A stretch of 41,379 bases of DNA from an uncultured Prevotella sp. (GTDB lineage: Bacteria > Bacteroidota > Bacteroidia > Bacteroidales > Bacteroidaceae), in contig CAKPRX010000009.1 of the NCBI GenBank assembly GCA_934183135.1, positions 1-41,379 of the forward strand. The letters are read 5' to 3'. Every line of letters starts with the position of its first letter. The first letter of the stretch is position 1. The notes under the pieces were generated by a model. The model was not told where the DNA came from and did no database searches. It was given only the letters and a program-made list of their open reading frames with translations. Below are positions 5,466 to 37,680 of the stretch, piece by piece. The position numbers were made by a program, and so were the translations under genes.

Positions 5466-5690
5466 GCAAAGTGCACGGATTTTTATTGTTTTCCGTTCAT
5501 TTTGTCATTCCCCTGAGCCTTCTGCGGCACCTTATGGCCCGCGGTGCCCCTGTCTCGGCGGGCCGCCCGGCAGCTGCTGACCGGGCCGGGCAGGCCATAC
5601 ACGCTGTCCAAGCACCCTCACAGAGCGCAAGCCATCGCCTACACCATCGCTACAACCAGGGAAAAAATGGCGAAAAACCTTTACACGTCG

Positions 5691-5736
5691 CTGTATATTT
5701 ATGCAAAATCCGAGGCCATAATGTATAAATATACAG
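5691..5736. repeat. 46-bp inverted repeat with two ARG-box-like sites, copy 1
   Basis: Arms CTGTATATTTATGCAAAA and TAATGTATAAATATACAG flank a 10-base centre. The outer parts match TGNATWWWWATNCA in both arms. The same 18+10+18 layout recurs in copies 2 and 3 with unrelated centres. Confidence 0.8.
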
Positions 5737-5933
5737 CCATGACGCCCGTTTTCCGGGGCCTGGTTTCCGGAAAATTTCATCAAACCAGGACGGTTTTCGA
5801 GGCCATTGGGGGCGTTCGGGGGGCTCGCGAGGAACACAAAAGTAACAACCTTTTACAAAATAGCAGCATTTAGCACCTCTCGCGCCGCTATTTTCAGCTC
5901 TCGCGAGGTCGGTTTTCAGGGTCGCCGCGATGG

Positions 5934-5993
5934 TCATTTTTTTGCTCGCGATGGTCATTAGGATCGTAATGACCATCGCGAGCAAAAAAATGA
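5934..5993. repeat. 60-bp perfect palindrome, copy 1
   Basis: Two 27-base arms that are exact reverse complements (core arm GCTCGCGATGGTCATTA, flanked by seven T/A and TCA/TGA) around a six-base loop GGATCG. It is the longest perfect inverted repeat I found in the window. Confidence 0.9.
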
Positions 5994-6156
5994 TGGTTTT
6001 CGGGTGGTCCGAAAATGGGCTTTTTCGTCACCGCTGTACCCTCGGCGAGCGTACAGGCTAACTACAGAAGCTCAAAAAGCACCCGCACGGCAGCCTGACG
6101 CCCGAAATGTATATTTATACATTGTCTGAAAAAATCTTACAATGCCAGTCAGCCAA

Positions 6157-9100
6157 TCAGCGGTCTTCGGCCGGCACATAGCCGCCACGACTGGCCACAT
6201 GGTCTATAAGCCGGGCAAAGAGGGCGTTGTGGCGCAGCGTGGGCTCGTGCCCCGTCAGGATGAGCTGTTTGCGGGCCCGGGTCAGGGCCACGTTGAGCTT
6301 GCGGTCTATGACGTGTCCGTCTTCCTCGAAACAGTTGGCCGTCAGGAAGTCGAGCTGATAGACATGCTGGATGGTAAAAGAGTAGATGATGATGTCGCGC
6401 TGCGAACCCTGGTAACGCTCTACCGTATCGATGGTGACGTGCCCGAGCGCCTCTATGCCCGTGGCCTCCAGACAGTGGCGTATCATAGCTATCTGGTTGC
6501 GGTAAGGCACGATGACACCCACGGTATGGGCCGCGTCGAAGTGGGCACCGTAGTAACAGTATATGCGCCCGAGCAGACGGGCCACCGTCTGGGCCTCGGC
6601 CGGGTTTACCTTGTCCGACTGGGTGGGGGCCATGTTGGTGGCCGAGGCCAGGAACAGGTTGCGACAGGTGTGCATCAGCCTCCCCAGGGCATCGTCGGCC
6701 GGAGCGGCCACATCCTGCGGATAGATAAACGACTCGCCCTGGTGGGGCAACGGCACGCACTGCAGCCGCTCGCGACGGTAGAACATGTGGTTGGGAAACT
6801 CGGCCACGTCGGGGTGCATACGGCCCTGGCGGCGCAGGATGCCCACAAAGTCGGTACGGCCCAGGGCCAGCTCGCGGCGGTAAAGGCGCTCGAAGAGCGA
6901 GTCGCGGCAGTCGTAGAGCCCCATGTCGCGCAGCAGCGGGTCGTCTACCCGCGAGAGGGCCGCCGGCTGCTGTACCACGGCAGGCAACTGCTTGTAGTCG
7001 CCCACGAGGACGAACCGGGGCACGCGGGCCAGCAGCCCCACCACCGAGGGCTCCAGTATCTGGCTCGCCTCGTCCACGATGGCCAAGCTGAACTGCCGCA
7101 GCTCGAACAGGTAGGCCCGGCTCTGCAGGGTAGACGTGGTGGCCACCACCACGCGGGCCGACACGAGGGTACGGCGTACCTGGTCCAGCCGTGGCGCGTC
7201 TCCCAGCCGGCTGTCCAGCAGATGGGGACGGAAGCGGGCGTCGCAGGTGTACGCGCCGCCTATGCGCAGATAGTCTATGGCGGCCTCGTCGAGCATGGCG
7301 CATATCTCGTCGACCGCCCTGTTGGTGTACGACATAAGCAGCAGGCTGGCGCCCTCATCGGTCAGCGCCTCCTGGACCATAAAGCGCAGCGCCATCGACG
7401 TCTTGCCGGTTCCGGGCGGACCAACGAGCAGGAAGAAGTCGTTGGCACGCTTGGCCCGGAGCAGTATGTCGTCGTAGGCAGGGCTATAGGGCCGCGTGAG
7501 CTGGCGCGAGTGGTCGGCCGTGGGCTGGCGCTGCCCCAGCAGCAGGTCCAGCCGTGGCCCCGGGCTGCTCACCAGCTCGCGCAGGCTGCGCAGCTGGGCC
7601 GTAAAGGTGCTGTCAGAGCCTCCGTGCTCTACGGCATAGGTGCCCTCGGCCAGTATCTGGGGGTTCTGCTGGCCGTCGTTCAGGTGCAGGGTGATGCGGT
7701 GGGTATGTATATCGGTGAGCGAGCCCTTGAAGAGCAGCGCGCGGCGCACGTCGGGCTCACCCTGATAGGCATACAGGTACACCATGTCGCCCGTGCGGAA
7801 GTTGGGCAGGAAGTCGGCCCCCTGGTCGGGCACCCGCAGGGTGACGGTGTCGTAGCCCCCGCGCCCGCTGCTCCGCTCCTTGGCCATAATGGTCAGCCCG
7901 GTATATATATTGCCCATCTCGCGCTTGGTGGCCAGGGGCATGTTCCACAGGTCGGCCATGCTGGTGCCCACGCCCTCGTGCGCGCCCACCTTGGCGGCCA
8001 GCTGCTCGCGGTACACAAAGGTGGCCATGGCGGCCAGGTAGGCCCGGGCCACCGGACTCAGGGTGTGCAGCGGGCCCAGCAACTGCTGTTGCTGCCGGTA
8101 TATGTAGTCGGTATAGAAGCGGCCGCCTATCTGACGCTCGTTGAGGGTCTCGGGGGTGAGCCGGTCTATGACGGGGCCGAAACCCTGGCGGGCATAGGCA
8201 TAGTCCTGGGCCACGATACGGTTGCGGAAGGCTATGGCCTCGTGGAAGAGGGCCTGGTAGTAGTTCACGCTGACCAGGCCGCCGGGCAGGGGGTACTTAG
8301 AGTAGAGCAGGCGCAGGTCGGTCTGACTGTGACGACGGCCAAAGTTGTAGCGCAGCACGCCGGCGTAGAGCAGCAGCTGTACATAGTGGTCTTCCTTCTG
8401 GTAAGAGCCGTAGCGGTTGGGGTGGCCGCTCTGTATGTTGTAGTTGGCACCCGACTTCTGCTCCACCAGGAGGCGCAGGTCGGTAGTCATAAGGTCCACG
8501 CGGCCCTGGACGCCCAGCTGCTCGCATACAAACGAGGGTTCCAGGATGGCACGGGCACGGTCGTAGCCCTGGCGTCGCTCGCCGGCACCACCGGGGCCAA
8601 ACAGGTGGGCCACTATGCCGCGCAGGTTGTCTACCTGGCGCAGGGCGGCGGTCTTAAAGTCTTCGTGCGAGCTGAAGTCGGGACAGGTACAGTACTCCAT
8701 GGCGCGCTCACGGAAACTGGCGCGCAGCGTGTCGTGCCAGTCGTAGTCGCCGGCATGGTTGATGATGTCGTCCAGGGCCCGGCCGGCAAAGTTACCCAGC
8801 AGGATGGCCTGCGAGTTGGCCGCGCTGGCCAGCCTGTTGACGGTATAGGACAGGGGGTGATGGCCATAGTCGGTAAAGCAGCGTGCTATGGCGCTTATGT
8901 CGACCAGGTAGTCGGGCTCCAGGACTATGAGCGACGGCTCAATAGGGTCGTCGCCATGGCAGTCGAGCAGATTGAGCTGCGTGCCACGGCGGAGCAGGGG
9001 CCGCAGGTACTCATGGGCACCGTAGGCCACCCTCACCGTGGGCGCGGTGTCGTCGCGGTCGGCATAGGCATAGATGTAGTGGTCGTCGGCATGGCTCACC

Positions 9101-9519
9101 ACACAGCGCAGATAGCGGCGGCCTACCGCCGGGCGGCCCGTGGCACGGCGGCCGGTCACGGGGATGCGCCCCACGAGGTAAGGGGGTACGGGCTCGTTGC
9201 CCACGGCCGACACGAGCAGGGCCAGGGCACGCAGGTCATAGCGCCAGTCGTCGTCGGCAATGGCCTCGGCCCCGTTAGAGTGGCGGCGCATGGTCTGGAT
9301 GGCCACGGTGTCGGCAGCGCCCACGCCATGGGCCCGGCAGAGATAGTCTATCTGGGCGAAGAGGTTGCCAAAGGCCATCTGGGTGTCGCGGACGCCCTCG
9401 TAGCACACCTGTACCAGCACGGCGTGCAGGTTCTTGTTGCGCACATCGGGGGTGGCGGCAGTCAGGTCGGCCAGGGCCTCGATACGTCTGAAAAGCTGTT
9501 CGGTTGTCGTAGTGTCCAT
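6157..9519 (-). CDS. Dna2-like nuclease / superfamily 1 helicase
   Basis: A 1120-residue protein starting at MDTTTTEQLF. The N-terminal half contains a RecB/Dna2-type PD-(D/E)xK nuclease signature, GRVDL near residue 338 followed by EQKSG near 354, preceded by a CTCPDF cluster (near 275) that could help bind an iron-sulphur cluster. The C-terminal half is an SF1 helicase of the Dna2/NAM7/Upf1 group: Walker A GPPGTGKTS near 700, Walker B VDEASQ near 813, motif III GDYKQLP, a GRMHPDVAEFPN motif, VERYQGSQRD (motif V) and VALTRARK (motif VI). Such enzymes process DNA ends or flaps in replication and repair. The frame stays open upstream to 9666 but that part is antisense-free tRNA and terminator sequence, so the ATG at 9519 is chosen. 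It is preceded by tRNA-Leu and followed by repeat copy 1. Confidence 0.9.
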   Translation of the reverse strand: MDTTTTEQLFRRIEALADLTAATPDVRNKNLHAVLVQVCYEGVRDTQMAFGNLFAQIDYLCRAHGVGAADTVAIQTMRRHSNGAEAIADDDWRYDLRALALLVSAVGNEPVPPYLVGRIPVTGRRATGRPAVGRRYLRCVVSHADDHYIYAYADRDDTAPTVRVAYGAHEYLRPLLRRGTQLNLLDCHGDDPIEPSLIVLEPDYLVDISAIARCFTDYGHHPLSYTVNRLASAANSQAILLGNFAGRALDDIINHAGDYDWHDTLRASFRERAMEYCTCPDFSSHEDFKTAALRQVDNLRGIVAHLFGPGGAGERRQGYDRARAILEPSFVCEQLGVQGRVDLMTTDLRLLVEQKSGANYNIQSGHPNRYGSYQKEDHYVQLLLYAGVLRYNFGRRHSQTDLRLLYSKYPLPGGLVSVNYYQALFHEAIAFRNRIVAQDYAYARQGFGPVIDRLTPETLNERQIGGRFYTDYIYRQQQQLLGPLHTLSPVARAYLAAMATFVYREQLAAKVGAHEGVGTSMADLWNMPLATKREMGNIYTGLTIMAKERSSGRGGYDTVTLRVPDQGADFLPNFRTGDMVYLYAYQGEPDVRRALLFKGSLTDIHTHRITLHLNDGQQNPQILAEGTYAVEHGGSDSTFTAQLRSLRELVSSPGPRLDLLLGQRQPTADHSRQLTRPYSPAYDDILLRAKRANDFFLLVGPPGTGKTSMALRFMVQEALTDEGASLLLMSYTNRAVDEICAMLDEAAIDYLRIGGAYTCDARFRPHLLDSRLGDAPRLDQVRRTLVSARVVVATTSTLQSRAYLFELRQFSLAIVDEASQILEPSVVGLLARVPRFVLVGDYKQLPAVVQQPAALSRVDDPLLRDMGLYDCRDSLFERLYRRELALGRTDFVGILRRQGRMHPDVAEFPNHMFYRRERLQCVPLPHQGESFIYPQDVAAPADDALGRLMHTCRNLFLASATNMAPTQSDKVNPAEAQTVARLLGRIYCYYGAHFDAAHTVGVIVPYRNQIAMIRHCLEATGIEALGHVTIDTVERYQGSQRDIIIYSFTIQHVYQLDFLTANCFEEDGHVIDRKLNVALTRARKQLILTGHEPTLRHNALFARLIDHVASRGGYVPAEDR

Positions 9520-9550
9520 CGCTCTATTAATAATAATGTGGAATGTGCCA

Positions 9551-9587
9551 AAAACAAAATTGGGAGAATCTGCCGATTCTCCCAATT
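9551..9587 (-). terminator. intrinsic terminator of tRNA-Leu
   Basis: On the minus strand a perfect 13-bp stem (AATTGGGAGAATC / GATTCTCCCAATT, loop of 4) is followed by TTGTTTTT, four bases after the tRNA 3' end. It should separate the tRNA transcript from the helicase gene that starts 32 bases further on. Confidence 0.85.
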
Positions 9588-9590
9588 CAG

Positions 9591-9672
9591 TACCCAGAGC
9601 CGGGGTCGAACCGGCACGGATTGCTCCACTGGTGTTTGAGACCAGCGCGTCTACCGATTCCGCCATCTGGGC
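9591..9672 (-). tRNA. tRNA-Leu (anticodon CAA)
   Basis: An 82-base cloverleaf on the minus strand: acceptor GCCCAGA pairs with TCTGGGT (one G-U pair), discriminator A, anticodon stem CTGGT/ACCAG with the loop CTCAAAC giving anticodon CAA (reads UUG), a long variable arm typical of class II leucine tRNAs, and a T arm GCCGG-TTCGACC-CCGGC. The 3' CCA is not encoded. A consensus promoter lies just upstream and an intrinsic terminator just downstream. Confidence 0.93.
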
Positions 9673-9698
9673 CGCAGACTTAGCTGATAAGTCGGCTG

Positions 9699-9729
9699 CA
9701 AAGATAAATGATTTTTCCGAGATAACAAA
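9699..9729 (-). promoter_or_regulatory. promoter of tRNA-Leu
   Basis: Minus-strand TTTG (9729-9726), 19 bases, then TATCTTTG (9706-9699): a full match to the Bacteroidota consensus. The expected start lies about 20 bases before the mature tRNA. Confidence 0.8.
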
Positions 9730-9754
9730 GTTTTGTAAGAAAAATCTTAAAAAG

Positions 9755-9786
9755 TTTGCGCCGTTCGTGGATATTGGTTATCTTCG
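9755..9786 (+). promoter_or_regulatory. probable promoter of manC
   Basis: TTTG at 9755-9758, 20 bases, then TATCTTCG at 9779-9786, one mismatch from TAnnTTTG. It would give a leader of about 25 bases to the ATG at 9819. Confidence 0.5.
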
Positions 9787-9818
9787 CCACCAGAACATAT
9801 TCACATCGTAATCGTACA

Positions 9819-10907
9819 ATGACTAACATAAACAATAACTACTGTGTCATACTCGCCGGCGGTAAGGGGCGCCGTCTCTGGCCGTGCAGCCGTGAGCAGT
9901 ATCCCAAGCAGTTTATCGACTTCTTCGGCAGTGGCCGCACGCTGCTCCAGCAGACATTTGACCGCATGCGCCGACTGCTGCCCCTGGACAACATATACAT
10001 CAACACCAACCAGGAGTACATGGACCTGGTGCGCAGGCAGCTGCCCGAGGTGGCGCCCGACCATATCATGGCCGAGCCCATACACCGCAACACGGCGCCC
10101 AGCATAGCCTGGGCCTGTCACCGGATAAACCACCTGAACCCCAGGGCCAACCTGCTGGCCATACCGTCGGACCAGATGGTGCTGGACGAGGCTGCCTTCG
10201 GGCGCAATGTCAACGAGGGATTTGACTTCGTGTCGGCCCACGACTGCCTGCTTACCATGGGCGTAAAGCCCACCCGTCCGGAGCCGGGCTATGGCTACAT
10301 ACAGCAGGGCGAGGTGGCCGTAGGCGAGGTGTACAGGGTGCAGTCGTTTACAGAGAAACCCGACCGCGAGTTCGCCCGCATGTTCTACGAGAGCGGCGAG
10401 TTCTTCTGGAACACGGGCATGTTCCTGGCCAACATCCCGTTCCTGTTCCACACCTTCTGCCAGATGCTCCCGCTGGTACTGCGACGGCTCGACATGGCCC
10501 ATCCGTCGTGGACCGTCGAGGAGGAAGACCGCTATGTCACCGAGAACTTCCCCTCGTACCCCAACATGTCTATCGAGCGGGGCATACTGGAGAAGTCGGA
10601 GAATGTATATGTCATGAGGTGCAACTTCGGGTGGGCCGACGTGGGCACCTGGCACAACATCTACGAGGCCATGAGCCGCACGGAGGGCGACAACGTGATT
10701 ATAGACTCTGACGTGATAGCCGACGAGGCACACAACAACATCATCAAACTGCCCAAGGGCCGCCTGGCGGTCGTCAACGGGCTTGACGGGTTTATCGTGG
10801 CCGAGGAGGGCAACGTGCTGCTCATCTGCCGCAAGGAAGACTCGTCGGCGCTGATACGCAAGTACGTGTACGACCTGCAGATGAAGCGTGGCGACGACTA
10901 TGTATAA
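9819..10907 (+). CDS. manC: mannose-1-phosphate guanylyltransferase
   Basis: A 362-residue nucleotidyltransferase that makes GDP-mannose from mannose-1-phosphate and GTP for glycan synthesis. The N-terminal signature GGKGRRLWPCSREQYPKQF, a central FTEKPD and WNTGMFLANI, and a GWADVGTW near the C-terminus are those of the family. The C-terminal phosphomannose isomerase domain of bifunctional enzymes is absent, giving the usual length of the single-function type. The start is set at MTNINNN; the in-frame ATG at 9756 would lie inside the promoter. An exported SH3 protein gene follows after 19 bases, probably in the same transcript. Confidence 0.93.
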   Translation: MTNINNNYCVILAGGKGRRLWPCSREQYPKQFIDFFGSGRTLLQQTFDRMRRLLPLDNIYINTNQEYMDLVRRQLPEVAPDHIMAEPIHRNTAPSIAWACHRINHLNPRANLLAIPSDQMVLDEAAFGRNVNEGFDFVSAHDCLLTMGVKPTRPEPGYGYIQQGEVAVGEVYRVQSFTEKPDREFARMFYESGEFFWNTGMFLANIPFLFHTFCQMLPLVLRRLDMAHPSWTVEEEDRYVTENFPSYPNMSIERGILEKSENVYVMRCNFGWADVGTWHNIYEAMSRTEGDNVIIDSDVIADEAHNNIIKLPKGRLAVVNGLDGFIVAEEGNVLLICRKEDSSALIRKYVYDLQMKRGDDYV

Positions 10908-10926
10908 CCTTATTATATTATAGGAG

Positions 10927-11370
10927 ATGACAACAGGAAAATTCTGGCTCGCCTGTCTGATAACCATGACAGGCTTGAGCGCACAGGCGCAGTCTGCCAA
11001 GACTGTCAAGATGGTAGTAACCGACAATGGCAGCGCCTATGAGTATCTTGCAGAAAGTTCTGACAAGTACCATGTAATGGGACAGGACGACGGATGGGTG
11101 GACAAGAAGACCAGCAAGATAGAGCTATGGTCGGCCGCCAAGGGCAAGGGCTGGGTCTGTGGCCGCAAGGACAGCGGCACGGTAAACATACGCCAGCGCC
11201 CCAGTACCCAGGCACCTGTAGTGGGCCGTCTGGAGAGTCAGAAGAACAGCATCCCCGACTCGGCCAGGTGCTTAGGCGTAAAGAAAGGCTGGTACCGGGT
11301 AGACTGCAACGGCACCATAGGCTATGTAAAGGCATCGGTGGCCTGCTGGAGTGCCCTGCCGATAGACTGA
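10927..11370 (+). CDS. exported SH3 domain protein
   Basis: A 147-residue protein with a signal peptide (residues 1-22, cut after AQAQ). A bacterial SH3 (SH3_3) domain covers about 84-137: VNIRQRPSTQAPVVGRL, then KGWYRVDCNGTIGYVKASV. Such domains bind peptidoglycan or peptides at the cell wall. The middle region (30-80) is unrecognised. Two Cys pairs could form disulphides. It follows manC closely, but no functional tie to mannose metabolism is evident. Confidence 0.75.
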   Translation: MTTGKFWLACLITMTGLSAQAQSAKTVKMVVTDNGSAYEYLAESSDKYHVMGQDDGWVDKKTSKIELWSAAKGKGWVCGRKDSGTVNIRQRPSTQAPVVGRLESQKNSIPDSARCLGVKKGWYRVDCNGTIGYVKASVACWSALPID

Positions 11371-11451
11371 CCATACAGCCGGCTTCGGCCGGAGATGTTG
11401 ATTATATAATGTAGGGCCATCGGCCACTTAGCGGTGGCCCTCAACGCTAAA

Positions 11452-11499
11452 CCGCCGATACGCTGTCGGCTCCCCATAGGGGCGATGGCGTATCGGCGG
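11452..11499. terminator. hairpin between convergent genes
   Basis: A 12-bp stem (CCGCCGATACGC / GCGTATCGGCGG) enclosing a second CCCC/GGGG pairing. It lies between the plus-strand SH3 gene and the minus-strand HIT gene, where a shared terminator is expected. No long T-run follows on either side. A second weaker pairing AGGGCCA/TGGCCCT lies just upstream (around 11413-11440). Confidence 0.45.
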
Positions 11500-11536
11500 C
11501 TGGTATATGTACAGGTCTGAGCCAGACCCGTGGGCA

Positions 11537-11938
11537 TCAGAGCTTCTTAAACTCGGTGTAGATGCGGTCGGCTATGGCCTGCATCTCGTCGGCCTCTAAC
11601 TTGAGGTGCTCCTTACGGAAGTCGACATCGGCCTCCGAGTTGATAGGCATCAGATGGATGTGTGCGTGGGGCACCTCCAGGCCCAGCACCACCTGGGCTA
11701 CCTTCTTACAGGGGAAGGCGGCGCGTATGGCGGTGGCCACCTTCTTAGCGAAAAGCTGGAAAGCAGCTAAGTCCTGGTCGTCCATGTCAAAGATATAGTC
11801 GACCTCCTTGCGTGGGATGACCAGCGTATGGCCCTTGGTAAGGGGACTGATGTCCAGAAAGGCGTAGAAGTCGGCGCTCTCGGCACACTTGTAGCTCGGA
11901 ATCTCTCCTGCGGCTATCTTAGAGAATATCGTGGCCAT
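11537..11938 (-). CDS. HIT family nucleotide-binding protein
   Basis: A 133-residue HIT protein starting MATIFSKIAAGEIP, a typical HINT-like beginning. The catalytic histidine triad HAHIH lies near residues 97-101 after a GLEVPH lead. Family members hydrolyse AMP-linked nucleotides such as adenosine phosphoramidates or dinucleoside polyphosphates. The longer frame upstream lies within greA and is rejected. The ATG follows the greA stop by one base, so the two form an operon, an arrangement I would expect in Bacteroidales. Confidence 0.93.
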   Translation of the reverse strand: MATIFSKIAAGEIPSYKCAESADFYAFLDISPLTKGHTLVIPRKEVDYIFDMDDQDLAAFQLFAKKVATAIRAAFPCKKVAQVVLGLEVPHAHIHLMPINSEADVDFRKEHLKLEADEMQAIADRIYTEFKKL

Positions 11939-11939
11939 A

Positions 11940-12407: not shown

Positions 12408-12529
12408 AATACTTGTTATGTTTTTTATTAGTTCAACTTGTGCAGAAAACAATAAAATAATGGAACCCCGACAGCCCTTCAGCCTTGCCGAAATTCCAAC
12501 TACTACTGTTCTCGTACTTAATACTGCTG

Positions 12530-12808: not shown

Positions 12809-12813
12809 CAACG

Positions 12814-12877
12814 TGTTTTTCATAGTATTAGATTTAAGGTTAACAAGGTTTTGGACTCAGCGGAGTCCATTTTTTTT
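12814..12877 (+). ncRNA. candidate short non-coding RNA
   Basis: The sequence between the orphan promoter and the terminator would give an RNA of about 64 bases starting around GTGTTTTTCATAG and ending in the T-run at 12877. It contains no start codon with an open frame of note. The stretch TATTAGATTTAAGGTTAAC (12826-12844) seems familiar to me from Bacteroidales intergenic regions, but I cannot verify that here. The exact 5' end is inferred from the promoter. Confidence 0.5.
12852..12877 (+). terminator. intrinsic terminator
   Basis: A 7-bp stem TGGACTC / GAGTCCA with a four-base loop AGCG followed by eight T residues. It ends the short unit described above. Confidence 0.85.
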
Positions 12878-13013
12878 ACCCCTAACCCAAGTAGACAGTA
12901 TGAGTAGCACGCCCAGGTAACCACCGGAAAGCCGCCCTGGTCTTTGGGGGGCCGGAAAAGAGCGGGAAAAGGGCTGCCACAGGGGCCGAAACACAACAAA
13001 AGACCGTAATTAT

Positions 13014-13044: not shown

Positions 13045-13070
13045 CAGTCTGATTTAGAATTTCACCATTC

Positions 13071-19499: not shown

Positions 19500-21110
19500 A
19501 TGACAGAACAAGAATTACTTCAAATGCGAGACTTGGCTGAAACCGGACGGGTGCAGTTTAAAGAGCGAGCTAATGACCGTTATGACATCGGCTGTGAAAT
19601 GGTGGCATTCAGCAACTCGCGCGGTGGAAAACTTGTTGTCGGAATTAACGATAAATCAGGAGCAATTAATGCTCTTTCCTACAGGGAGCTACAGGAAACC
19701 ACTAATTTGCTAACGAGCATTGCATCTGAAAATGTAATTCCCAATATACTAATAGATGTAGACAATGTGCCTACTGCTGAAGGTACAGTTGTCGTTGTCA
19801 CAATTCCTGAAGGAAAAAATAAGCCCTATCACGACAATAAGGGGATTATATGGGTGAAGAATGGTGCTGACAAACGTAAAGTGTTCGACAACTCAGAACT
19901 TGCCGAGATGATGAGTGAATGTGGTAGTTTTGCTCCTGACGAGGCTGCTGTTCCTAATGCTACGATTAACGATCTTGATGCTGATACCATTAAACTTTAT
20001 CTAATGAGCCGTTTCGCACCGGTATTCAAAGGAAAGAATATCAGTGAGCTGAATATGAAAGACTATTCACTTGACGCAATGGCTGATGCTGTTATAAAAG
20101 GAGCAACCATCGAAAAATTGCTTGGTAATTTACGCCTCATTCGTCCAGATAATAGAATAACCGTTGCAGCAATGCTGCTATTTGGAAAATATACTCAGCG
20201 TTGGCTACCTGTTATGACTGCAAAATGTATCAGCTATATCGGTAATTCTGCTGGTGGAACACAATTCCGTGATAAAATGCATGATATGGAAATCGAGGGC
20301 AACTTGCTCCATCAGTTCCGTACTATTATGAATTTCCTTACTCGCAATCTGCGGAAGGTGCAGGTCGAAAAGGATTTCAATTCTATTGGTGAGTTAGAGA
20401 TACCTTATGAAAGTCTTACCGAGTATATTGTCAACGCACTTGTACATCGTTCACTGAATATTAAGTCCCCCATTCGTATTTTCATATTTGACAATCGTGT
20501 GGAAATCCACAGCCCAGGAACTTTACCAAATGGGCTGACTATTGAGGACATTAAGAATGGCACATCAATTCCTCGCAATATGTTTTTGTTCACGAATGCG
20601 AACTACTTATTGCCCTATACTGGAGCAGGAAGTGGCGTACGCCGTGCGCTTGAATACGACTCCAATGCCGTTTTCTCCAACGGTATAGAAGACAAAGGCT
20701 TCACTCATGCCGCCAACGAATTCGTTATTACCATACCTCGCGAAAGTAACCAAGTTCTATCTGAAAGTAATCAAGTTGCCCCAAAAAGTAACCAAGTTGT
20801 GGTTGTCTATGGGCACAAAGGTAACCAAGCTGACGGAAAAAGCAACCAACCTCGCATAAACTTGGCTACTCGCAAACTGACAAAGAAAGAAGAGGACATC
20901 AGGAATTTTTGTTCCGTACCGAGGAGTGCACAAGAAATTATGGATAGGCTGAACATATCCAATCAATCTAAAAACCGGCAGAGACATATTACGCCCTTAA
21001 TAGAACTCGGTGTCCTTGAACGTACTATTCCCGATAAGCCCAACGACCCAAATCAGAAATATCGCCGCAAAAATAACGGGGCAGCAGATATTGACGATTG
21101 CCCCCGATAA
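19500..21110 (+). CDS. AlbA_2/Schlafen-type ATP-binding protein
   Basis: A 536-residue protein. Residues ~10-140 form an AlbA_2 (Schlafen AAA-4) domain: QFKERANDRYDIGCEMVAFSNSRGGKLVVGI. A GHKL-like ATP-binding C-terminal part follows: EYIVNALVHRSL near 305, IFIFDNRVEIHSPGTLPNGLT near 330, and an AGSGVRRAL segment. Residues ~418-460 contain four to five copies of an SNQV-type repeat, and the end (about 470-520) is a winged-helix-like segment (SAQEIMDRLNISNQSKNRQRHITPLIELGVLER). The family is described as putative transcriptional regulators or helicase-like proteins and often sits in accessory regions. The gene is richer in A and T than its left-hand neighbours, consistent with transfer. Repeat copy 2 begins 54 bases after the stop. 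Confidence 0.82.
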   Translation: MTEQELLQMRDLAETGRVQFKERANDRYDIGCEMVAFSNSRGGKLVVGINDKSGAINALSYRELQETTNLLTSIASENVIPNILIDVDNVPTAEGTVVVVTIPEGKNKPYHDNKGIIWVKNGADKRKVFDNSELAEMMSECGSFAPDEAAVPNATINDLDADTIKLYLMSRFAPVFKGKNISELNMKDYSLDAMADAVIKGATIEKLLGNLRLIRPDNRITVAAMLLFGKYTQRWLPVMTAKCISYIGNSAGGTQFRDKMHDMEIEGNLLHQFRTIMNFLTRNLRKVQVEKDFNSIGELEIPYESLTEYIVNALVHRSLNIKSPIRIFIFDNRVEIHSPGTLPNGLTIEDIKNGTSIPRNMFLFTNANYLLPYTGAGSGVRRALEYDSNAVFSNGIEDKGFTHAANEFVITIPRESNQVLSESNQVAPKSNQVVVVYGHKGNQADGKSNQPRINLATRKLTKKEEDIRNFCSVPRSAQEIMDRLNISNQSKNRQRHITPLIELGVLERTIPDKPNDPNQKYRRKNNGAADIDDCPR

Positions 21111-21322
21111 GTTTGACGCGATAGATTGGCACACGCGAAACTGCAGATAACTTGCCAATACAAATCGTAAAGATTTTTCTGATTATGTATAAATATACAT
21201 TTCTGGCGTTTCGGCATGGGATGAGGGCGTTTCGCCCTTCTGTAACTTGCCTGTACGCTCGCCGAGGGGACTGCGGTGGCGAAAACGCCGATTTTCTGAT
21301 GGGGCGAAAACGACCTTTAGAG

Positions 21323-21364
21323 TGCTCGCGATGGTCATTAGAATCGTAATGACCATCGCGAGCA
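21323..21364. repeat. 42-bp palindrome, copy 2
   Basis: 18-base perfect arms around loop GAATCG. The left flank has lost the T-run that extends the arms in copies 1 and 3. Confidence 0.85.
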
Positions 21365-21570
21365 AAAAAATGACCATCGCGGCGACCCCGAAAACCATCT
21401 TCGCCGGAGCCGAAAATAGCGGCGCGCAAGGCAATAATTGCCTCTATTTTGTAAAAGGTTGTTACTTTTGAGAGCCTCGCGGTGGCCTGAAACGGCCCAG
21501 ATGACCCCGAAAAGCGTCCTGGTTTGATGAAAAATTCCGGAAATTACGACCCTAAAAGCAGGCGTTATGG

Positions 21571-21616
21571 CTGTATATTTATGCAAAACGAACAGCACTT
21601 TTGCATAAATATACAG
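21571..21616. repeat. 46-bp inverted repeat with two ARG-box-like sites, copy 2
   Basis: Perfect 18-base arms CTGTATATTTATGCAAAA and TTTTGCATAAATATACAG around a 10-base centre unrelated to those of the other copies. Confidence 0.85.
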
Positions 21617-21703
21617 TGGCGTGTAAAGGTTTTTCACAGTTCGCGCCATGGTTATAGCGACGATAGGGTCTGTAGCATTGACCATGACGGCCATGGGGAT
21701 TGC

Positions 21704-22435
21704 TCAAATCACCTGCAAGGCATAGTACTGGTAGTCGTGCAGGACGGTCTGTAGGAAGTCGGTGTCCGACTGTCCGTGGCTGCTGATGTCGAGGAGCTGC
21801 TCTACCTTCTGCACCAGACGGTGAACCTGCTCGTCGCTGTACACCTTGCGATCGTTGAGCATACGGCTGATAACGTCGGCCTGGCCCAGCGACAGCTGCT
21901 GCACCTCGGGGTACACGGGCGTATAGTCGGGGCTGGCGTAGTAGAACTCGTCGAGCGACAGGTGCATCTGGTCCTTGCGCGGGTTGCGTATCACCATGGT
22001 GCCCGCAGCCAGGTCGCCCAACCTCTGGTTACGCCGCGTGCAGATAATGACGATGACGCCCAGGCAGTAGAAGTACATATCGACCACCAGGAACACCCAC
22101 CGCAGCAGGATGGCCCCCAAGGTGGGCGCCGCGCCGTCGACCATCACCACACGGGTACGCATGATGCGCTTGCCCAGCGTCTGCCCGTCCATGAAGTACT
22201 CGCACAGGAGCGAATAGAACATCGCGGGGGCCACAAGAAACATTATCACAATAAGGTTGACCACATCGTTATTGCCCGATGTTATCCAGCGCCATGGCTC
22301 AAGCCTGAATAGGGTTATCATGTAGATGAACAGTATCACCATGTCTATCATCCGCGCCAGCACGCGCTCGCCCACGCCCGCCGGGGTCTGGGTAATGCTC
22401 ACATATTGGCCTGTTACGATGTCCGAGGTCTTCAT
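21704..22435 (-). CDS. RDD family membrane protein
   Basis: A 243-residue protein with an RDD domain: the arginine/aspartate pair in the first membrane helix (GERVLARMIDMVILF), then further hydrophobic helices around 50-85 and 105-140, with GQTLGKRIMRTRVV between. RDD proteins are small polytopic proteins often proposed to take part in transport. The C-terminal ~90 residues are soluble and acidic and are not part of the domain. It is the last gene of the minus-strand run, one base after the DUF58 gene. Confidence 0.85.
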   Translation of the reverse strand: MKTSDIVTGQYVSITQTPAGVGERVLARMIDMVILFIYMITLFRLEPWRWITSGNNDVVNLIVIMFLVAPAMFYSLLCEYFMDGQTLGKRIMRTRVVMVDGAAPTLGAILLRWVFLVVDMYFYCLGVIVIICTRRNQRLGDLAAGTMVIRNPRKDQMHLSLDEFYYASPDYTPVYPEVQQLSLGQADVISRMLNDRKVYSDEQVHRLVQKVEQLLDISSHGQSDTDFLQTVLHDYQYYALQVI

Positions 22436-22436
22436 C

Positions 22437-29066: not shown

Positions 29067-29101
29067 AATTATGATACTTGGCAAAGCCAGGGATGGCCTG
29101 C

Positions 29102-32056: not shown

Positions 32057-32212
32057 ATACTCATGGTTTTAGTGATACGCGGCTCTGTTATCCTTAATGA
32101 CTGCACACCGAAGAGCCATCATGGCTTAGCTCTAAGTAGTTCAGACCGACACGCCAACCGACATCCGAGCGCCACGTATTAACCCGACTGTCATGGCGAT
32201 GGCTTACGGATG

Positions 32213-32245
32213 CAAAAATACAAAGAAAAAATCAACAATTGCAAA
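32213..32245 (-). promoter_or_regulatory. promoter of the surface-protein gene
   Basis: Minus-strand TTTG (32245-32242), 21 bases, TATTTTTG (32220-32213). The predicted leader is about 150 bases and contains an AGAGCC...GGCTTAGCTCT pairing (near 32110-32132). AT-rich CAATTG repeats around 32235-32252 may also help end the upstream serine-hydrolase transcript. Confidence 0.7.
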
Positions 32246-32324
32246 CAATTGCTAATTATTTTCGGTAATTACGTTATAAATCGTTCTTTTTGCGGTTGCA
32301 ATTACAATAAATCATAAAACAGCG

Positions 32325-33650
32325 CTAACCTTTGAAGAGGTCGCGACGGGGCATGACGGGGCCAAACTTCTTGCGCAGCCGCTCGAAGAGGGCCATCGTG
32401 TCGCGCGAGAAGGCATGGCCCTTCCATGTGCTGGTGTTGGTGATAAACACCCAGCACTCGCCGTCGGGATAGCGTATCACCAGGGCGCTGGTACCTACCA
32501 GCGAACCCGTGCGAACCCAGGGCTTGCCTTTGGGGGTGTAGTTCCAGCCCAGGGAGAAGTCGTGGTCGGGCATCTCGCGGGTCATGGCCTCTACGGAGCG
32601 CCTGCTGATGATGTCGGGAACCACCGGGCAGCCGTCTATCGATGCCACCAGGCGACACAGCTCGGCCGCCGAGGCACACCAGGCACCGGCTCCGGCCAGA
32701 CGGGGTATGTCGTTCTCGCCATAGCACTTCTCGACCAGACGGCCGCTGTTGTTGAACTCGTACGTGGGCTTGCAGGTAAGGTGCATATAGTAACGGCTCT
32801 CGTTGGGCCGACGGTCGCGGTAGTAGTTGCCTGCTATGTGGAAGTCGTAGCAGCCGGCAGGCTCGAATACCCGTGTACGCATGAAGCGCTCGTAGGACAT
32901 ACCCGAGCGGCGGGCTATAATCTCCGAGAGGAGCATATACCCTAAATTGCTATACCGGCGGGCCGTGCCAGGCGTGTAGCCGAGGCGGCGGCGCAGCACT
33001 ATGCCGAGCAGGGTGCGGTGGTCGGGAGCCTCGGTGAGGTGGTTCTGCATCATGATGTAGCGGGTAGAGAACATGGGGTCGCCCGCGTAGTTGGTGAAGC
33101 CTGCCTTGTGGCGCAGCAGCTGCTCGACGGTGATGTCCAGGTAGCGCTTGTCGCTGATGGCGCGGGTATAGGCGGTGTCGCTGAGTATGCCGTGGGGCCC
33201 GAAGACGCGGTCTGACAGCCGCAGCTTTCCCATGTCGCACAGCTTCATAATGCCCACGGCCGTCATCAGCTTAGAGACCGATGCCATGCGCATGATATGC
33301 CCCGGCTGCATCGCTACCCCTTCGTCGGCCTTGCCGAAACCACGGACATAGAGGAGCGAGTCGTTACGGGAGATGGCCAGCTGGGCACCATTAATCTCCC
33401 AGCGACGCAGATAGCGCTCCATAATAGAGTCCATGTCGTGCAGCTCAGGGCTGCTGCCCACCTCGTTGCTGAGCGAGTCGTTGAGGTGTACGCCTGTGGC
33501 GCGCAGGGTGTCGGCCCCGGTATGGGTGCCGGTACATGCGCACGAGCAGCGGCCGATGGCCACGATGACCAGCACCACCACCGTAAGGCAGCCGGCGCAC
33601 GACAGCCTGACGCGGGTGCGGTATTGTTCTCTTATCCTATACTTCTTCAT
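32325..33650 (-). CDS. serine hydrolase, class C beta-lactamase family
   Basis: A 441-residue protein of the beta-lactamase/transpeptidase-like (AmpC/esterase, DUF serine hydrolase) family. A membrane helix lies at 19-33 followed by a Cys-rich segment (CSCACTG), which could be a lipobox-like or an anchored N-terminus. Catalytic motifs: S124-V-S-K127, Y233-S-N235, and RTG near residue 386 in place of KTG. Members include D-amino acid peptidases, esterases and penicillin-binding proteins as well as lactamases, so the substrate is open. It is transcribed alone, with a -7 box just upstream. Confidence 0.85.
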   Translation of the reverse strand: MKKYRIREQYRTRVRLSCAGCLTVVVLVIVAIGRCSCACTGTHTGADTLRATGVHLNDSLSNEVGSSPELHDMDSIMERYLRRWEINGAQLAISRNDSLLYVRGFGKADEGVAMQPGHIMRMASVSKLMTAVGIMKLCDMGKLRLSDRVFGPHGILSDTAYTRAISDKRYLDITVEQLLRHKAGFTNYAGDPMFSTRYIMMQNHLTEAPDHRTLLGIVLRRRLGYTPGTARRYSNLGYMLLSEIIARRSGMSYERFMRTRVFEPAGCYDFHIAGNYYRDRRPNESRYYMHLTCKPTYEFNNSGRLVEKCYGENDIPRLAGAGAWCASAAELCRLVASIDGCPVVPDIISRRSVEAMTREMPDHDFSLGWNYTPKGKPWVRTGSLVGTSALVIRYPDGECWVFITNTSTWKGHAFSRDTMALFERLRKKFGPVMPRRDLFKG

Positions 33651-33658
33651 GTGTCATG

Positions 33659-33666
33659 CAAAATTA
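33659..33666 (-). promoter_or_regulatory. -7 box of the serine hydrolase gene
   Basis: Minus-strand TAATTTTG ends nine bases before the ATG at 33650, implying a very short leader. No clear -33 box is seen at the expected distance. Confidence 0.4.
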
Positions 33667-33799
33667 GCAAAATCTACGCGATAATCGGCAGCCATCGCCT
33701 AAAATCTTGCCGCATCAGCCCGTCAGCCGCGGTGATGCCATCGCCTTACTGCTTAACCCGGGAAGTGGCCAGCAGGGCTCGCCTTGCGGTCCAAAATCT

Positions 33800-33861
33800 A
33801 CAAATTACTGAATAAATCGCCCACAAATTACTGAATAAAAAGCTCACAAATTACTGAATAA
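33800..33861 (+). repeat. three tandem 23-bp repeats (iteron-like)
   Basis: ACAAATTACTGAATAA occurs exactly three times, at 33800-33815, 33823-33838 and 33846-33861, each separated by a 7-base spacer, so the period is exactly 23 bases. The surrounding 33651-33952 region carries no gene. The regular period of about two helical turns suggests stacked protein-binding sites. Confidence 0.85.
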
Positions 33862-33895
33862 TCCTGGAAATCATCTGAAAATCAACAAGAACTCA

Positions 33896-33903
33896 TACAT
33901 TTG
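33896..33903 (+). promoter_or_regulatory. orphan plus-strand -7 box after the 23-bp repeats
   Basis: TACATTTG matches TAnnTTTG, 34 bases after the third repeat. It points into the 3' end of the oppositely oriented response-regulator gene, with no credible plus-strand gene downstream. No -33 box is evident. Confidence 0.35.
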
Positions 33904-33952
33904 CGCTCCAAGTGGCTGCCTATGGCTAAATGCACGTCAGCCCCTATGCCTT

Positions 33953-34651
33953 TCACCTCTTCTCTCCCACCCTGCTTCCTGGGGGAGACGCCTTTTCTCG
34001 TCTTTCATCCTCGCCCGGCAACGGCTCCATGGGCGGACAGCGCAACAGGCCCTCGCGGGTGGCCTGCTGTACCATGTCGACCATGTTGCGGGCGCAGAAA
34101 CGGCGCATGAGACGCTTACGGTAGTACTCGATGGTATTCTCACTGAGACACAGGCGGGTGGCTATCTCCCTGCTGGGCAGTCCCTGGGCCAGCAGTTCCA
34201 GCACCGCGGTCTCGCGGGCGCTCAGGCCGCAGGTCAGGGCCTGGTCGACGATGGCCCGGAAACGCGGACTGAGATACTCGCCACCCTCGCGCACACTGGC
34301 CACCGCGGCCAGCAGCAGCGCGGGCGGCTCGCTCTTGAGCACCACGCCGGCCAGGGGGACTTGCTGGAGCTGGCGGGCCACCCATAGTTCCTCGTGCATA
34401 GTGTAGACGATGACGCGGGTGTGCGCACTCCTGTCGGCTATGGCGGCGAGCAGACTGGTGCCGTGGGCACCGGGCAGGTCCAGGTCTACCACGGCCACCG
34501 AATAGCTATAGGGGCTTGCCGTGAGGGCACGCAGCACCCCATCGGCCGTGGTGGCGGTGTCTATCAGTACCCCGGGCAGGGCCGACAGCAGCGTGCGGAT
34601 GCCCTGGAGCACTATACGGTGGTCGTCGGCCACCAAGAGGTGGGTGGTCAT
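33953..34651 (-). CDS. NarL/LuxR-type response regulator
   Basis: A 232-residue two-domain response regulator. The receiver has the acidic pair D9-D10, phospho-acceptor D56 (VVDLDLPG), T84 and K106 (VLKSE). The LuxR-type helix-turn-helix covers about 145-205 (LSARETAVLELLAQGLPSREIATRLCLSENTIEYYRKRL). The last 30 residues are a charged tail. The start at 34651 (MTTHLLVADD) overlaps the kinase stop by 4 bases; a longer start at 34678 would lie within the kinase gene. It is the output of the adjacent kinase. Confidence 0.93.
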   Translation of the reverse strand: MTTHLLVADDHRIVLQGIRTLLSALPGVLIDTATTADGVLRALTASPYSYSVAVVDLDLPGAHGTSLLAAIADRSAHTRVIVYTMHEELWVARQLQQVPLAGVVLKSEPPALLLAAVASVREGGEYLSPRFRAIVDQALTCGLSARETAVLELLAQGLPSREIATRLCLSENTIEYYRKRLMRRFCARNMVDMVQQATREGLLRCPPMEPLPGEDERREKASPPGSRVGEKR

Positions 34652-36300
34652 CGGTGCAGGGTCAGTATCTGTCGGCATATATCGTCATGGCATTGGTAAG
34701 CGATGGTGGCGTGGATGGCACGGGCGCGCTCGGCGAGCGACTGGCTGCCAGCGCCGTGGCCCTGGTGGCCCTGGTAGCCGTCGTTCTCGATGACCAGCTG
34801 GTGGGGCGCGAGTTCTACGTGGATATAGGTGGCATGGGCATGGCGGCGAATGTTGGTAACCGTCTCCTGGAGCACGCGGTAGAGCTGAAAGGCCACATGG
34901 GGAGCCACCACCACGCCGGGGTCACTGCCGAAGGTGGCGCCGGCAACGGCCTGCAAGTAGGCGCGGGCACACTCCTGAAACGAGGTGTGGGCAAACCGGG
35001 GCGGCATAAGCTCGTGACTGATGCGCCGCACGTCCTGATGCAGGTCGCGGAGCATCTGGGCCGACTCCTCGACAGGCTGCGTGTCCAGGCAGAGCGACAG
35101 TCCGAGCAGGTCGCCGGCTATGCCGTCGTGGAGCTCGTGGCCCAGCCGGTCGCGCTCCTGCTCCATACCCTCGATATAGCGGCGGGCACTCCTGAGACGG
35201 GCTCCGCGGCGCACGAGCCATACGGCGGCCCCGAGCGCCACACAGACCACGGCCACCACAGCCAGGATGGCCAGCAGCCGGTTCTGGCGCGCTGAGAGAC
35301 GGGCTATCTCCAGCTCCTTCTGCGCGGTGTCGTACCGGGCCGTAAACTCGCTCAGCTGACTGTCTATGGCTGTCTGGGCCATAGAGTCCTTGGCGGCCAG
35401 GGCCTGCTCGTAGCACTGGGCAGACAGGGCGGGCTGGTGCAGGTCGGCATAGTTGCGCGCCATGATGGTATAGAGGCGGTCGGCGGGCGTAATCAGCCCC
35501 TGGGGGCGCAGGCTGAGTATCAGCTGCTGCACGGCGATGCTCTCGCGGTAGCGGCCCAGCTGGCGCAGCACCAGATACTTCTCCTCCAGATAGCCCTGGC
35601 CCTCGGGCGAGGCAGGGCTGACCCGCCGGAAGAGCGTGTCGCACACGGCTATGTAGCGGTCTATGGAGTCGGCCAAGGCGGCAGAGCGCCGAGGCGCGGG
35701 GGCGGCGGTCTTCATCTTCAGGAAGTAGTCTATGATGGCCGTATAGCCCTTGAGCATGTAGTTGGGGCGGTGCTGGCGGCGGGCCTCGGCGGCCATGGCA
35801 CGCAGGGTGGCTATGGCCTCGGTATAGCGGCCCCGCAGGGTGAGTATGCTGCCATACGTGTAGTCGCAGTACATTATCATGTCGATGTCGCGGCTGGCAT
35901 GGGCTGTCCGGGCGGCCCGCCGGGCGTAGCGCTCGGCCTCGGCCACGCGGCTGGTGTTGGCATACAGGATGGCTATGCTGCACAGCACGTGCGAGAGTTC
36001 TGACTTGTCGCCCGACTGCTGTGCCAGCGTCAGCGCCCGCTGGTAGCAGTACAGGGCCGAGTCGGCATGCTCGGTAATGCGGTAGGCTACGCCCTGGTTG
36101 GTAAGGGCCACCGCCTCGGCCACGCGGTCGGCCCGGCTATGGGCCAGGCGCTGGGCACGCCGGTAGGAGCCAAGGGCACGCTCGTACTGTCCCGCCTGGA
36201 GCAGCGAGTCGCCCTGCTCGTTGTACTGCTCGCAGGCATCGGTCTGTGCCCAGAGCATGGGGCCACACAGGGCCAGGACAAGGGTTAGGATATACTTCAT
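34648..36300 (-). CDS. TPR-containing sensor histidine kinase (HisKA_3 type)
   Basis: A 550-residue kinase of the NarX/DesK group. A signal peptide (1-18) leads into TPR-like repeats (about 20-290: ALGSYRRAQRLAHSRADRVAEAVALTNQGVAY; ADSALYCYQRALTLAQQSG), placing the sensor outside the inner membrane. One membrane helix lies near 345-365. The dimerisation helix carries the phospho-acceptor His in LGHELHDGIAGDL near residue 389. The ATPase part has the N box ETVTNIRRHAHA near 490 and a short, divergent G region (IENDGYQGHQGHG...LAERARAI), which looks reduced compared with canonical DNGxG. It forms an operon with the response regulator. The signal is unknown. Confidence 0.92.
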   Translation of the reverse strand: MKYILTLVLALCGPMLWAQTDACEQYNEQGDSLLQAGQYERALGSYRRAQRLAHSRADRVAEAVALTNQGVAYRITEHADSALYCYQRALTLAQQSGDKSELSHVLCSIAILYANTSRVAEAERYARRAARTAHASRDIDMIMYCDYTYGSILTLRGRYTEAIATLRAMAAEARRQHRPNYMLKGYTAIIDYFLKMKTAAPAPRRSAALADSIDRYIAVCDTLFRRVSPASPEGQGYLEEKYLVLRQLGRYRESIAVQQLILSLRPQGLITPADRLYTIMARNYADLHQPALSAQCYEQALAAKDSMAQTAIDSQLSEFTARYDTAQKELEIARLSARQNRLLAILAVVAVVCVALGAAVWLVRRGARLRSARRYIEGMEQERDRLGHELHDGIAGDLLGLSLCLDTQPVEESAQMLRDLHQDVRRISHELMPPRFAHTSFQECARAYLQAVAGATFGSDPGVVVAPHVAFQLYRVLQETVTNIRRHAHATYIHVELAPHQLVIENDGYQGHQGHGAGSQSLAERARAIHATIAYQCHDDICRQILTLHR

Positions 36301-36420
36301 ACGTATAATATAATTAAGGTATAAGGGCCGGCACCCTGACGGCGGCGGCTGATTGACGGGGCTAAGTTACAAATAAATTGACAGAAAACAGACTTATAGC
36401 GACGATTATTTTCCCGTCAC

Positions 36421-36663
36421 TCAGTCTATCGCGGTTTGGGCCGAGGCCGCCAGCAGGCCGCTGCGGTAAGCCTTGCCCACCAGGTGGGCGGCATTGCGCA
36501 CGCCCAACTTGGCAAAGAGGCTCTTGCGGTGGTACTCTATGGTATTCTCGGACACAAAGAGGCGACCGGCAATCTCGACCGAGGTAAGACCGTACGATAT
36601 AAGCTCGAGAACCTGGTGTTCCCGAGCCGACAGGTGTATCTCCAAATCGCGGTCGTGCTGCAT
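36421..36663 (-). CDS. single-domain LuxR-type DNA-binding protein
   Basis: An 80-residue protein that is essentially just a LuxR helix-turn-helix (LSAREHQVLELISYGLTSVEIAGRLFVSENTIEYHRKSLFAKLGVRNAAHLVGKAY). Its recognition helix closely matches that of the neighbouring response regulator (SENTIEYYRKRL), so it could share target sites. There is no receiver domain. The start is taken at MQHDRDLEIHLS; a longer frame to 36699 crosses a TAATTTTG -7 box (minus strand 36694-36687). It lies 121 bases upstream of the kinase gene on the same strand and might be part of the same regulatory locus. Confidence 0.8.
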   Translation of the reverse strand: MQHDRDLEIHLSAREHQVLELISYGLTSVEIAGRLFVSENTIEYHRKSLFAKLGVRNAAHLVGKAYRSGLLAASAQTAID

Positions 36664-37018
36664 CCCTAATCGTACAAATGGTCTAACAAAATTAGGCATT
36701 TATCGGTGTACGCGCCATGATTTGCAACCACATTCCAACCCTCTTCACCGCAAAACTACGGACAGCCGTAGGCCCGCCAACGGCAGCATGACGGAAAACC
36801 GTAGCCGCGAAGCACCTCCCCGGCATGTTATTCCGAAAAATTCTTACTATCACCGTCCCCCGGCAAGACTTCTCCCTGGCTTGGGCGGCCGATGGGGGCA
36901 GCCTGGCCTTCGTGCCTAACAAAGAAGATAACGCCCTGCTGACACTTGCGGATGCCGCTGACTGTGTCGTGCGACGCGGATGGGCACAGGCAGAAGCGCT
37001 CATAGCAAGCCACCCCGT
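36664..37018. other. intergenic stretch, one weak small reading frame
   Basis: Apart from the -7 box for the small LuxR gene, the only thing of note is a 66-codon plus-strand frame at 36825-37025 with an ATG start, whose end overlaps the first bases of repeat copy 3. Its codon usage is mixed, it has no promoter or family resemblance, and I do not count it as a gene. Confidence 0.3.
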
Positions 37019-37169
37019 ATCGTAAATATTTTTCTGATTTTGCATAAATATACATTTCCTGTGTTTCGGCATCGCGCGAGGGCTTTTCGGCCCTCTGTCG
37101 TTTGCCTGTACGCTCGCCGAGGGGATGGCGGCGTCGAAAAAGTCAATTCTCAGGCCACCCGAGAACCGC

Positions 37170-37227
37170 CATTTTTTCGCTCGCGATGGTCATTAGAATC
37201 GTAATGACCATCGCGAGCGAAAAAATG
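37170..37227. repeat. 58-bp perfect palindrome, copy 3
   Basis: 26-base perfect arms around loop GAATCG. Relative to copy 1, one pair next to the core has changed from T-A to C-G on both arms, a compensatory change. Confidence 0.9.
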
Positions 37228-37425
37228 ACCATCGCGGCGACCCCGAAAATCATCTTCGTAAGAGCTGGAAATAGCAGCTGAAAAAGCACAAAACACCCCT
37301 ATTTTGTAAAAGACTGTTACTTTTACGACCCTCACAATGGCCCGAAACGGCCCCGAAAGCCCCGAAAACCGTCCTGGTTTGATGGAAAATCACGGAAATA
37401 GCACCCCAAAAAACAGCCATTATGG

Positions 37426-37471
37426 CTGTATATTTATACATAAATGCCTCAAGTTTTGCATAAATATACAG
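37426..37471. repeat. 46-bp inverted repeat with two ARG-box-like sites, copy 3
   Basis: Arms CTGTATATTTATACATAA and TTTTGCATAAATATACAG around a 10-base centre. Each arm contains a match to TGNATWWWWATNCA. Confidence 0.8.
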
Positions 37472-37680
37472 CCGCGTGTAAAGGTTTTTCACCATAGCTC
37501 GTGCCGTGGCCATAATCCTGACAGCATCCGTGGCGTAGACCCCAGCCCCCCTGACCCGACGCTTCGCCACTTTGACATAAAACATACAGCGCCTCGGCCA
37601 TTTGAGCATGCTCATGGCGCCCTGTATCCACGCTTTACAACTAACTTTTGTGGCAACCACCTATTAAAAAGGCCAAAATG

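Follow-up and report, generated by a model that had tools for sequence, protein, structure and literature searches.

PINSR, a 188-bp intergenic repeat of Prevotella intermedia, was counted in 177 and 184 copies in two strains and is described as having no terminal inverted repeats (Naito et al., 2015, PMC4755523). As published in 2015, it was without a known function; it is reported downstream of tnaA, and the main text of that paper has 0 occurrences of 'ArgR' or 'arginine' (PMC4755523). The operator of the arginine repressor ArgR in E. coli is described as two 18-bp boxes with 3 bp between them, which corresponds to 21 bp centre to centre (PMC6640053). Here, we describe an intergenic element found in three copies (c1, c2 and c3) in a 41,379-nucleotide stretch of DNA from an uncultured Prevotella sp. 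(contig CAKPRX010000009.1), the whole of which is called the window. By its NusA identities, the window is Prevotella DNA: the protein is 99% identical to that of the metagenome-assembled genome SUG78 (L001, genome G001) and 95% identical to that of strain P5-108 (L002, genome G002), and the relatives were reached through this comparison. The element, which is about 490 bp long, is a real and selected unit at the level of DNA that carries argR operators. With moderate confidence, and on the evidence of sequence comparison, we interpret it as a non-coding, DNA-level binding platform for ArgR.

The first-pass annotation of the window had placed three copies, one of them inverted, and had claimed that they differ by substitutions and by no internal insertion or deletion (indel). 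Both the places and the orientations were borne out by alignment and repeat analysis (Table 1), and so was the absence of indels. Measured across its outermost 14-bp boxes, each of c1, c2 and c3 is 430 bp long; over this length 95 (c1-c2), 99 (c1-c3) and 92 (c2-c3) substitutions but 0 internal indels were counted, and a MAFFT alignment of the three copies is gap-free from about column 42 to column 535. All three are intergenic and share one layout, in which a single box marks the left end and an inverted pair the right, so that near-palindromic argR-type boxes sit near both ends. The single box lies 386 bp from the first paired box and the pair is spaced by 30 bp in 3/3 copies. The 14-bp near-palindrome TGYATAAATATACA or its complement gave 9 regular-expression matches in the window, all inside c1-c3, and a pattern of two blocks matched the window three times, with no match in 100 dinucleotide-shuffled versions. 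A hairpin is present between the boxes in each copy, and the outer end motifs stand in direct rather than inverted orientation. The best autocorrelation lag between the boxes of c3 was 21, and a unit of 21-22 bp amounts to two helical turns of DNA. Majority conservation across the three window copies and four copies of G001 was 0.95-0.97 in the boxes, 0.91 in the hairpin and 0.81 in the interior. An exact two-block pattern had 0 matches in the genome-contig collection searched, a blastn search with c3 gave no match in phage and plasmid collections, and three pattern scans of viral contigs did not match the element.

The box sequence matches the operator before argR in related genomes. In G002 the exact box occurs twice, both times before an argR gene, which is followed by a GNAT-like acetyltransferase gene (a label given by eye, without an NCBIfam match) and argG. 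The 10 box matches of G001 comprise one before argR (L114), five in two of its four element copies and four in other intergenic places with a layout similar by eye. The gene argR was sought in 25 genomes, of which 23 had a match and 22 upstream regions were examined; G160, with a partial match, was dropped from the count, and the region of G240 was shortened by a contig end. A box matching at 13/14 positions or better was found within up to 330 bp upstream of argR in 20/22 Prevotella genomes. At 30-40 bp before the argR match it was found in 15/22 genomes against 0.009 expected, the control being 3 such boxes in 83,160 positions of tnaA flanks, which are not argR-like intergenic DNA. Because of this enrichment, the most likely identity of the box is the operator through which ArgR of this genus regulates its own gene, an operator that would also serve genomes without dispersed elements. 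The paired boxes are 20 bp apart in G228, 22 bp in G352 and 30 bp in the window, and the argR promoter of G228, with four boxes before the gene, also holds a pair 20 bp apart.

Across the genus, at least one exact box was present in 56/398 genomes, with the highest counts in G352 (68), G228 (45), G103 (19), G246 (12), G337 (11), G001 (10) and G102 (9), compared with about 34 matches in 398 genomes, and never >2 in one genome, for a reversed-box control. The 44/56 genomes with one or two boxes each are near the control level and are no proof by themselves; the argR motif was found at 3/29 examined single-box loci. Boxes stand at both ends of the element in loci of G352, G228, G103 and G337, while a G187 locus has one box and a degenerate one by eye. 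Within the range 15-30, the best autocorrelation lag was 22 in G352, G228 (significant in one of two loci), G103, G187, G337 and a repeat of G085. In the slice taken from a G165 locus (L148), the 22-bp lag was not significant, and this locus was not counted as a member; a G246 locus at a contig edge was left unclassified. The G228 loci read, which do not include L171, have a box spacing of 414-415/20.

G352, a single-contig chromosome of 2.73 Mb, holds at least 40 full or near-full blastn matches to the element (the best 40 of 143 candidates), of which the best 30 (L188-L217) were read, a choice that favours intact copies. In these loci box1 and box2 were 22 bp apart in 29/29 and box2 and box3 178 bp apart in 29/30; the remaining locus, L205, has a distance of 177 and no box1 at threshold. 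Ten loci picked solely for an exact box (L161-L170, of which three overlap with the blastn-chosen 30) showed 178/22 in six, 179/21 in one, 180/30 in two and 190/22 in one, so that 32/37 distinct copies carry the 178/22 spacing when both selections are pooled. The 29 aligned copies accumulated 975 substitutions relative to their consensus over 214 columns, at pairwise identities of 0.67-0.92; by part, identity was highest in box3 (0.94) and the pair (0.88), lower in the interior (0.74) and lowest in the outer flanks (0.27-0.28). The earlier suggestion that spacing itself is kept beyond sequence therefore holds in the window and, more strongly, in G352. With many substitutions and the 178/22 spacing retained, the G352 copies would be better explained by dispersal long ago and selection that acts on boxes and length than by recent transposition. 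The half-sites of the four G352 units agree within a copy above chance in most pairs, except several with the third unit, which is consistent with one cognate protein or two subfamilies.

The sister genome G001 has four full copies, in which the distances from the left to the right box are 386, 385, 385 and 365. The 365-bp copy (L097 7892-8354) has lost one 21-bp unit; its two other indels, a -1 and a +1, cancel each other, and its net helical register is kept. The copy before rimP is the orthologue of c3, the one window copy with a counterpart at the orthologous place: from box to box the two are 80% identical and differ by one indel, compared with 94.8% identity in the stretch that begins shortly before rimP and runs into infB. 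Element and rimP are separated by 258 bp in the case of c3 and by 323 bp in G001, and the element itself differs in length by 1 bp. No copy of the window element and no box were found in G001 at the places of c1 and c2; c2 lies at a synteny break, and the c1 place holds 1.4 kb of other sequence that includes a boxless type-B array. A clean empty site or exact insertion boundary was not readable in G001 at either place. Type-B arrays consist of units of about 22 bp without boxes, with a best lag of 21 in one copy, and were matched at 40 or more places in G001 (the best 40 of 134 candidates), at 2 in G002 and at 0 in the window; the 27 copies read (L127 17886-17970, L321, L325-L354) stack gap-free.

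A repeat downstream of tnaA in G085 is taken to be PINSR; it was reached through a tnaA search in the genus. It has at least 40 full matches (the best 40 of 287 candidates), and the consensus of 24 copies is an array of 22-bp units (top lag 22) with an end motif, GTGTAAATATTTTTCAC, like that of the window element. A profile of the G352 element was tested on two G085 copies and matched each of them, with E-values of 1.2e-11 and 2.6e-8, and the reverse search with a PINSR profile against the G352 copies was weaker (best E 9e-4); these matches call for caution, as both arrays are A/T-rich and matched on both strands. The PINSR profile from the 24 G085 copies did not match the window at E<=5, and the window family has no match to PINSR or G352 beyond boxes and layout. 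On this evidence, the window element would be a variant, itself new, of PINSR-like intergenic repeats, which the G352 copies resemble. It appears to share layout, operators and end motif with the PINSR-like group, and common descent with PINSR is not implied. The statement of the first-pass annotation that no named element has this layout is thus amended, since the layout reported for PINSR (PMC4755523) is related. Text searches of open-licence PMC papers found none that joined ArgR with dispersed Prevotella repeats.

Given the operators and their spacing, we infer that arginine-bound ArgR hexamers would occupy the paired and the single operators and hold both together, with the unit array between them either bent or occupied by a second protein, and that each copy would thereby form a small arginine-dependent loop. 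The fixed length would then reflect helical register, because indels that shift the sites out of register would be purged. The boxes being the best-conserved part and the near-fixed spacing in spite of sequence drift both support an ArgR platform. Of the three possibilities raised at first pass, namely a folded RNA, a DNA-protein assembly or a recombination site, the DNA-protein assembly is the best, because the conserved boxes are argR operators, and the folded RNA was not upheld. For the cell, the element may perhaps serve local chromosome structuring or ArgR buffering rather than the control of one neighbouring gene. Among 54 copies in G352 and G085, 18 lie in convergent, 11 in divergent and 25 in co-directional intergenic regions (a simple open reading frame caller, no background computed), with no strong orientation preference relative to neighbouring genes; because all three contexts occur, control of a neighbouring promoter would not be the general role. 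The A/T tracts show an 11-bp periodicity with z of 16 in G352, 23 in PINSR and 4.9 in the window family against a run-shuffle null, values that are inflated by treating homologous copies as independent, and the units of G103 do not keep it by eye. Phased A-tracts may possibly be the sole cause of the fixed spacing.

Several observations weigh against an ArgR platform. The argR gene of G352 (L226) has no recognisable box in its promoter, though this genome is the richest in dispersed boxes. The element is not generally required, as it is absent from G002 and 392/398 genus genomes had no blastn match to c3; the six that matched at all are G001 and five others, in which the match covers only short fragments (two candidates were scored in each genome). 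Nor is ArgR a requirement of the whole wider group, as the type-B arrays at the c1 and c2 sites of G001 are without canonical boxes and none of the 24 G085 PINSR copies has a box at 13/14 or better, the best scores being 10-12 of 14. The unit sequence is lineage-specific across the family. Copies are not significantly more evenly spaced round the G352 chromosome than random positions (coefficient of variation 0.86 vs 0.97 +/- 0.14 at random; 45 positions, an incomplete list). Strict exactness of length also fails in the relatives, with 385 and 365 in G001 and 177, 179, 180 and 190 in G352. Free indels in other copies had been named at the outset as evidence against selection on spacing, and this pattern appears weakly, as the relatives have few indels, some of which amount to a whole unit or are compensated.

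A broader and more speculative proposal, which we regard as unlikely, is that in some Prevotella lineages ArgR has turned into a chromosome-structuring protein, with dozens of two-point ArgR clamps across length-fixed, helically phased arrays that would fold the chromosome in response to arginine; PINSR repeats would then be relatives in which the clamp was replaced or lost. If ArgR does bind dozens of non-promoter sites, a classic local repressor would have become a global DNA-organising protein in these bacteria. The operators offer a functional clue to a class of abundant Prevotella repeats that had no assigned role in 2015. That role can now be tested, as the protein (ArgR), the ligand (arginine) and the exact distances are all specified.

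The strongest competitor to an ArgR platform, to which we assign a limited probability, is a non-autonomous mobile element, either like a miniature inverted-repeat transposable element (MITE) or of a novel kind, that spread in few lineages; the boxes would be its ends or host-factor sites and the copies relics whose length was kept by the needs of transposition. The patchy spread, with many copies in few genomes, and the differing c1 and c2 sites in G001, with c2 at the synteny break, agree with mobility, and PINSR has been linked to some rearrangements (PMC4755523). The copies themselves speak differently: no gene lies inside any copy read, no excess of target-site duplications was found in 29 G352 or 24 PINSR copies (c1-c3 lay outside this test), and no near-identical pair exists among the 29 aligned G352 copies, in which the top pairwise identity is 0.92. 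Relics should, moreover, lose their spacing while the interior drifts to 74% identity.

It is improbable that the element represents a structured small-RNA family transcribed under ArgR control. A hairpin occurs in each window copy, the half-sites of the G352 units covary, and a conserved block holds the promoter-like word TAnnTTTG; no shared promoter or terminator was demonstrated. RNAalifold found two-sided changes in 17/112 predicted pairs, but the covariation term was unfavourable (+4.46) and the hairpin arms were nearly invariant. Rfam gave no match at gathering score inside c1-c3; with a lowered threshold the only matches were eight to microRNA-hairpin families, all falling far short of the gathering score in spite of E-values as low as 4e-5, and a weak one to BTnc231. 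RNA loops would also tolerate indels, and a folded RNA is thus unsupported by Rfam and RNAalifold. A coding function was rejected, as 7/7 copies (c1-c3 and the four of G001) have a stop in each of the six frames from box to box and the columns that vary among c1-c3 are not biased towards any codon position (38, 47 and 50 of 144, 143 and 143). In c1-c3 alike, a stretch of about 65 codons is free of stops in the same reverse frame, and because of the lack of codon-position bias and the stops elsewhere, this stretch is probably due to chance.

A similarly improbable explanation is that the copies act as ArgR decoys and titrate it away. The roughly three boxes in each copy, the 40 or more element matches in G352 and the lack of a clear operator at argR of that genome would suit titration; decoys would have no need for fixed 178- or 386-bp spacing or for a unit array, and the box-rich G228 has four boxes before its argR. 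Least probable of all is a site-specific recombination site with ArgR as an accessory factor, comparable to plasmid cer with its XerCD, PepA and ArgR, for despite ArgR-type sites beside a long spaced scaffold, inverted and direct copies and the position of c2 at a breakpoint, recombination among dozens of copies would delete or invert parts of the chromosome that holds them, and cer is a plasmid site.

Table 1. Positions of the three element copies and of their parts in the window.
Feature	Position	Strand	Context and basis
Copy c1	5640..6143	-	Flanked by the end of a helicase-like gene (6157-9666, -) and by an Lrp/AsnC-type regulator gene (4930-5469, -); alignment and repeats
c1 single ArgR-type box	6108..6121	-	Regular expression; same box as argR operators
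c1 paired ArgR-type boxes	5692..5735 (5722-5735, 5692-5705; starts 30 bp apart)	-	
Copy c2	21164..21685	+	Flanked by a Schlafen/AlbA_2 gene (19500-21110, +) and by an RDD-family gene (21704-22435, -); Pfam
c2 single ArgR-type box	21186..21199	+	Regular expression
c2 paired ArgR-type boxes	21572..21615 (21572-21585, 21602-21615)	+	
c2 inverted repeat, 17-bp arms	21324..21363	+	Within an array of ~21-bp units; followed by a third partial copy of one arm
Copy c3	37019..37530	+	Upstream of rimP-nusA (37774-38241, 38246-39511)
c3 single ArgR-type box	37041..37054	+	Regular expression
c3 paired ArgR-type boxes	37427..37470 (37427-37440, 37457-37470)	+	
c3 array, about five 21-22-bp units	37155..37275	+	Includes inverted repeat 37179-37218; limits by eye
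c3 end motif GTGTAAAGGTTTTTCAC	37476..37492	+	Left-end echo CGTAAATATTTTTC; read in sequence

Further differences from G001 were observed in the surroundings of the copies. Copies c2 and c3 border places that vary between the window and G001, where the Schlafen/AlbA_2 gene has no match and the segments 28.9-32.3 kb and 33.9-36.3 kb of the window are missing at the syntenic place. A homology search with the Lrp/AsnC-type protein beside c1 returned nothing informative on the element. The window also contains a match to the Bacteroidetes small-RNA family FopS (RF04319, 72 bits, 12813-12879, +); just after this place, G001 has a stretch of about 290 bp with a type-B array that the window is without, and no clean boundary was seen. 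A 23-bp unit (ACAAATTACTGAATAAA...) stands in three tandem copies at 33800-33868, near a gene that by eye has the look of a serine beta-lactamase-type hydrolase.

Among the known systems, PINSR is alike in being intergenic, non-coding, multi-copy and from the genus Prevotella; it differs in its 188 bp, compared with about 490 bp for the window element, and boxes of 13/14 or better occur only in the latter. We know of no fixed multi-site layout with operator boxes in REP/BIME palindromic repeats. These repeats are likewise dispersed intergenic palindromes, and REPs, at a reported 20-40 bp, are far shorter than the window element (PMC3733652). BrickBuilt and other MITEs of Porphyromonas gingivalis are also repeats of the Bacteroidales with internal tandem units, of 23 nt, but are reported to have terminal inverted repeats like those of IS elements (PMC4596501); no such IS-like repeats were found in the window element. 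The operators of ArgR/AhrC (ARG boxes) are alike in that the same box stands before argR in the same genus and in that it is paired. They normally lie at arginine-gene promoters, whereas the window-type boxes are dispersed elsewhere with a third box at a fixed distance, and the usual pair spans about 21 bp, whereas the window pair, at 30 bp, is one turn longer and covers about three turns.

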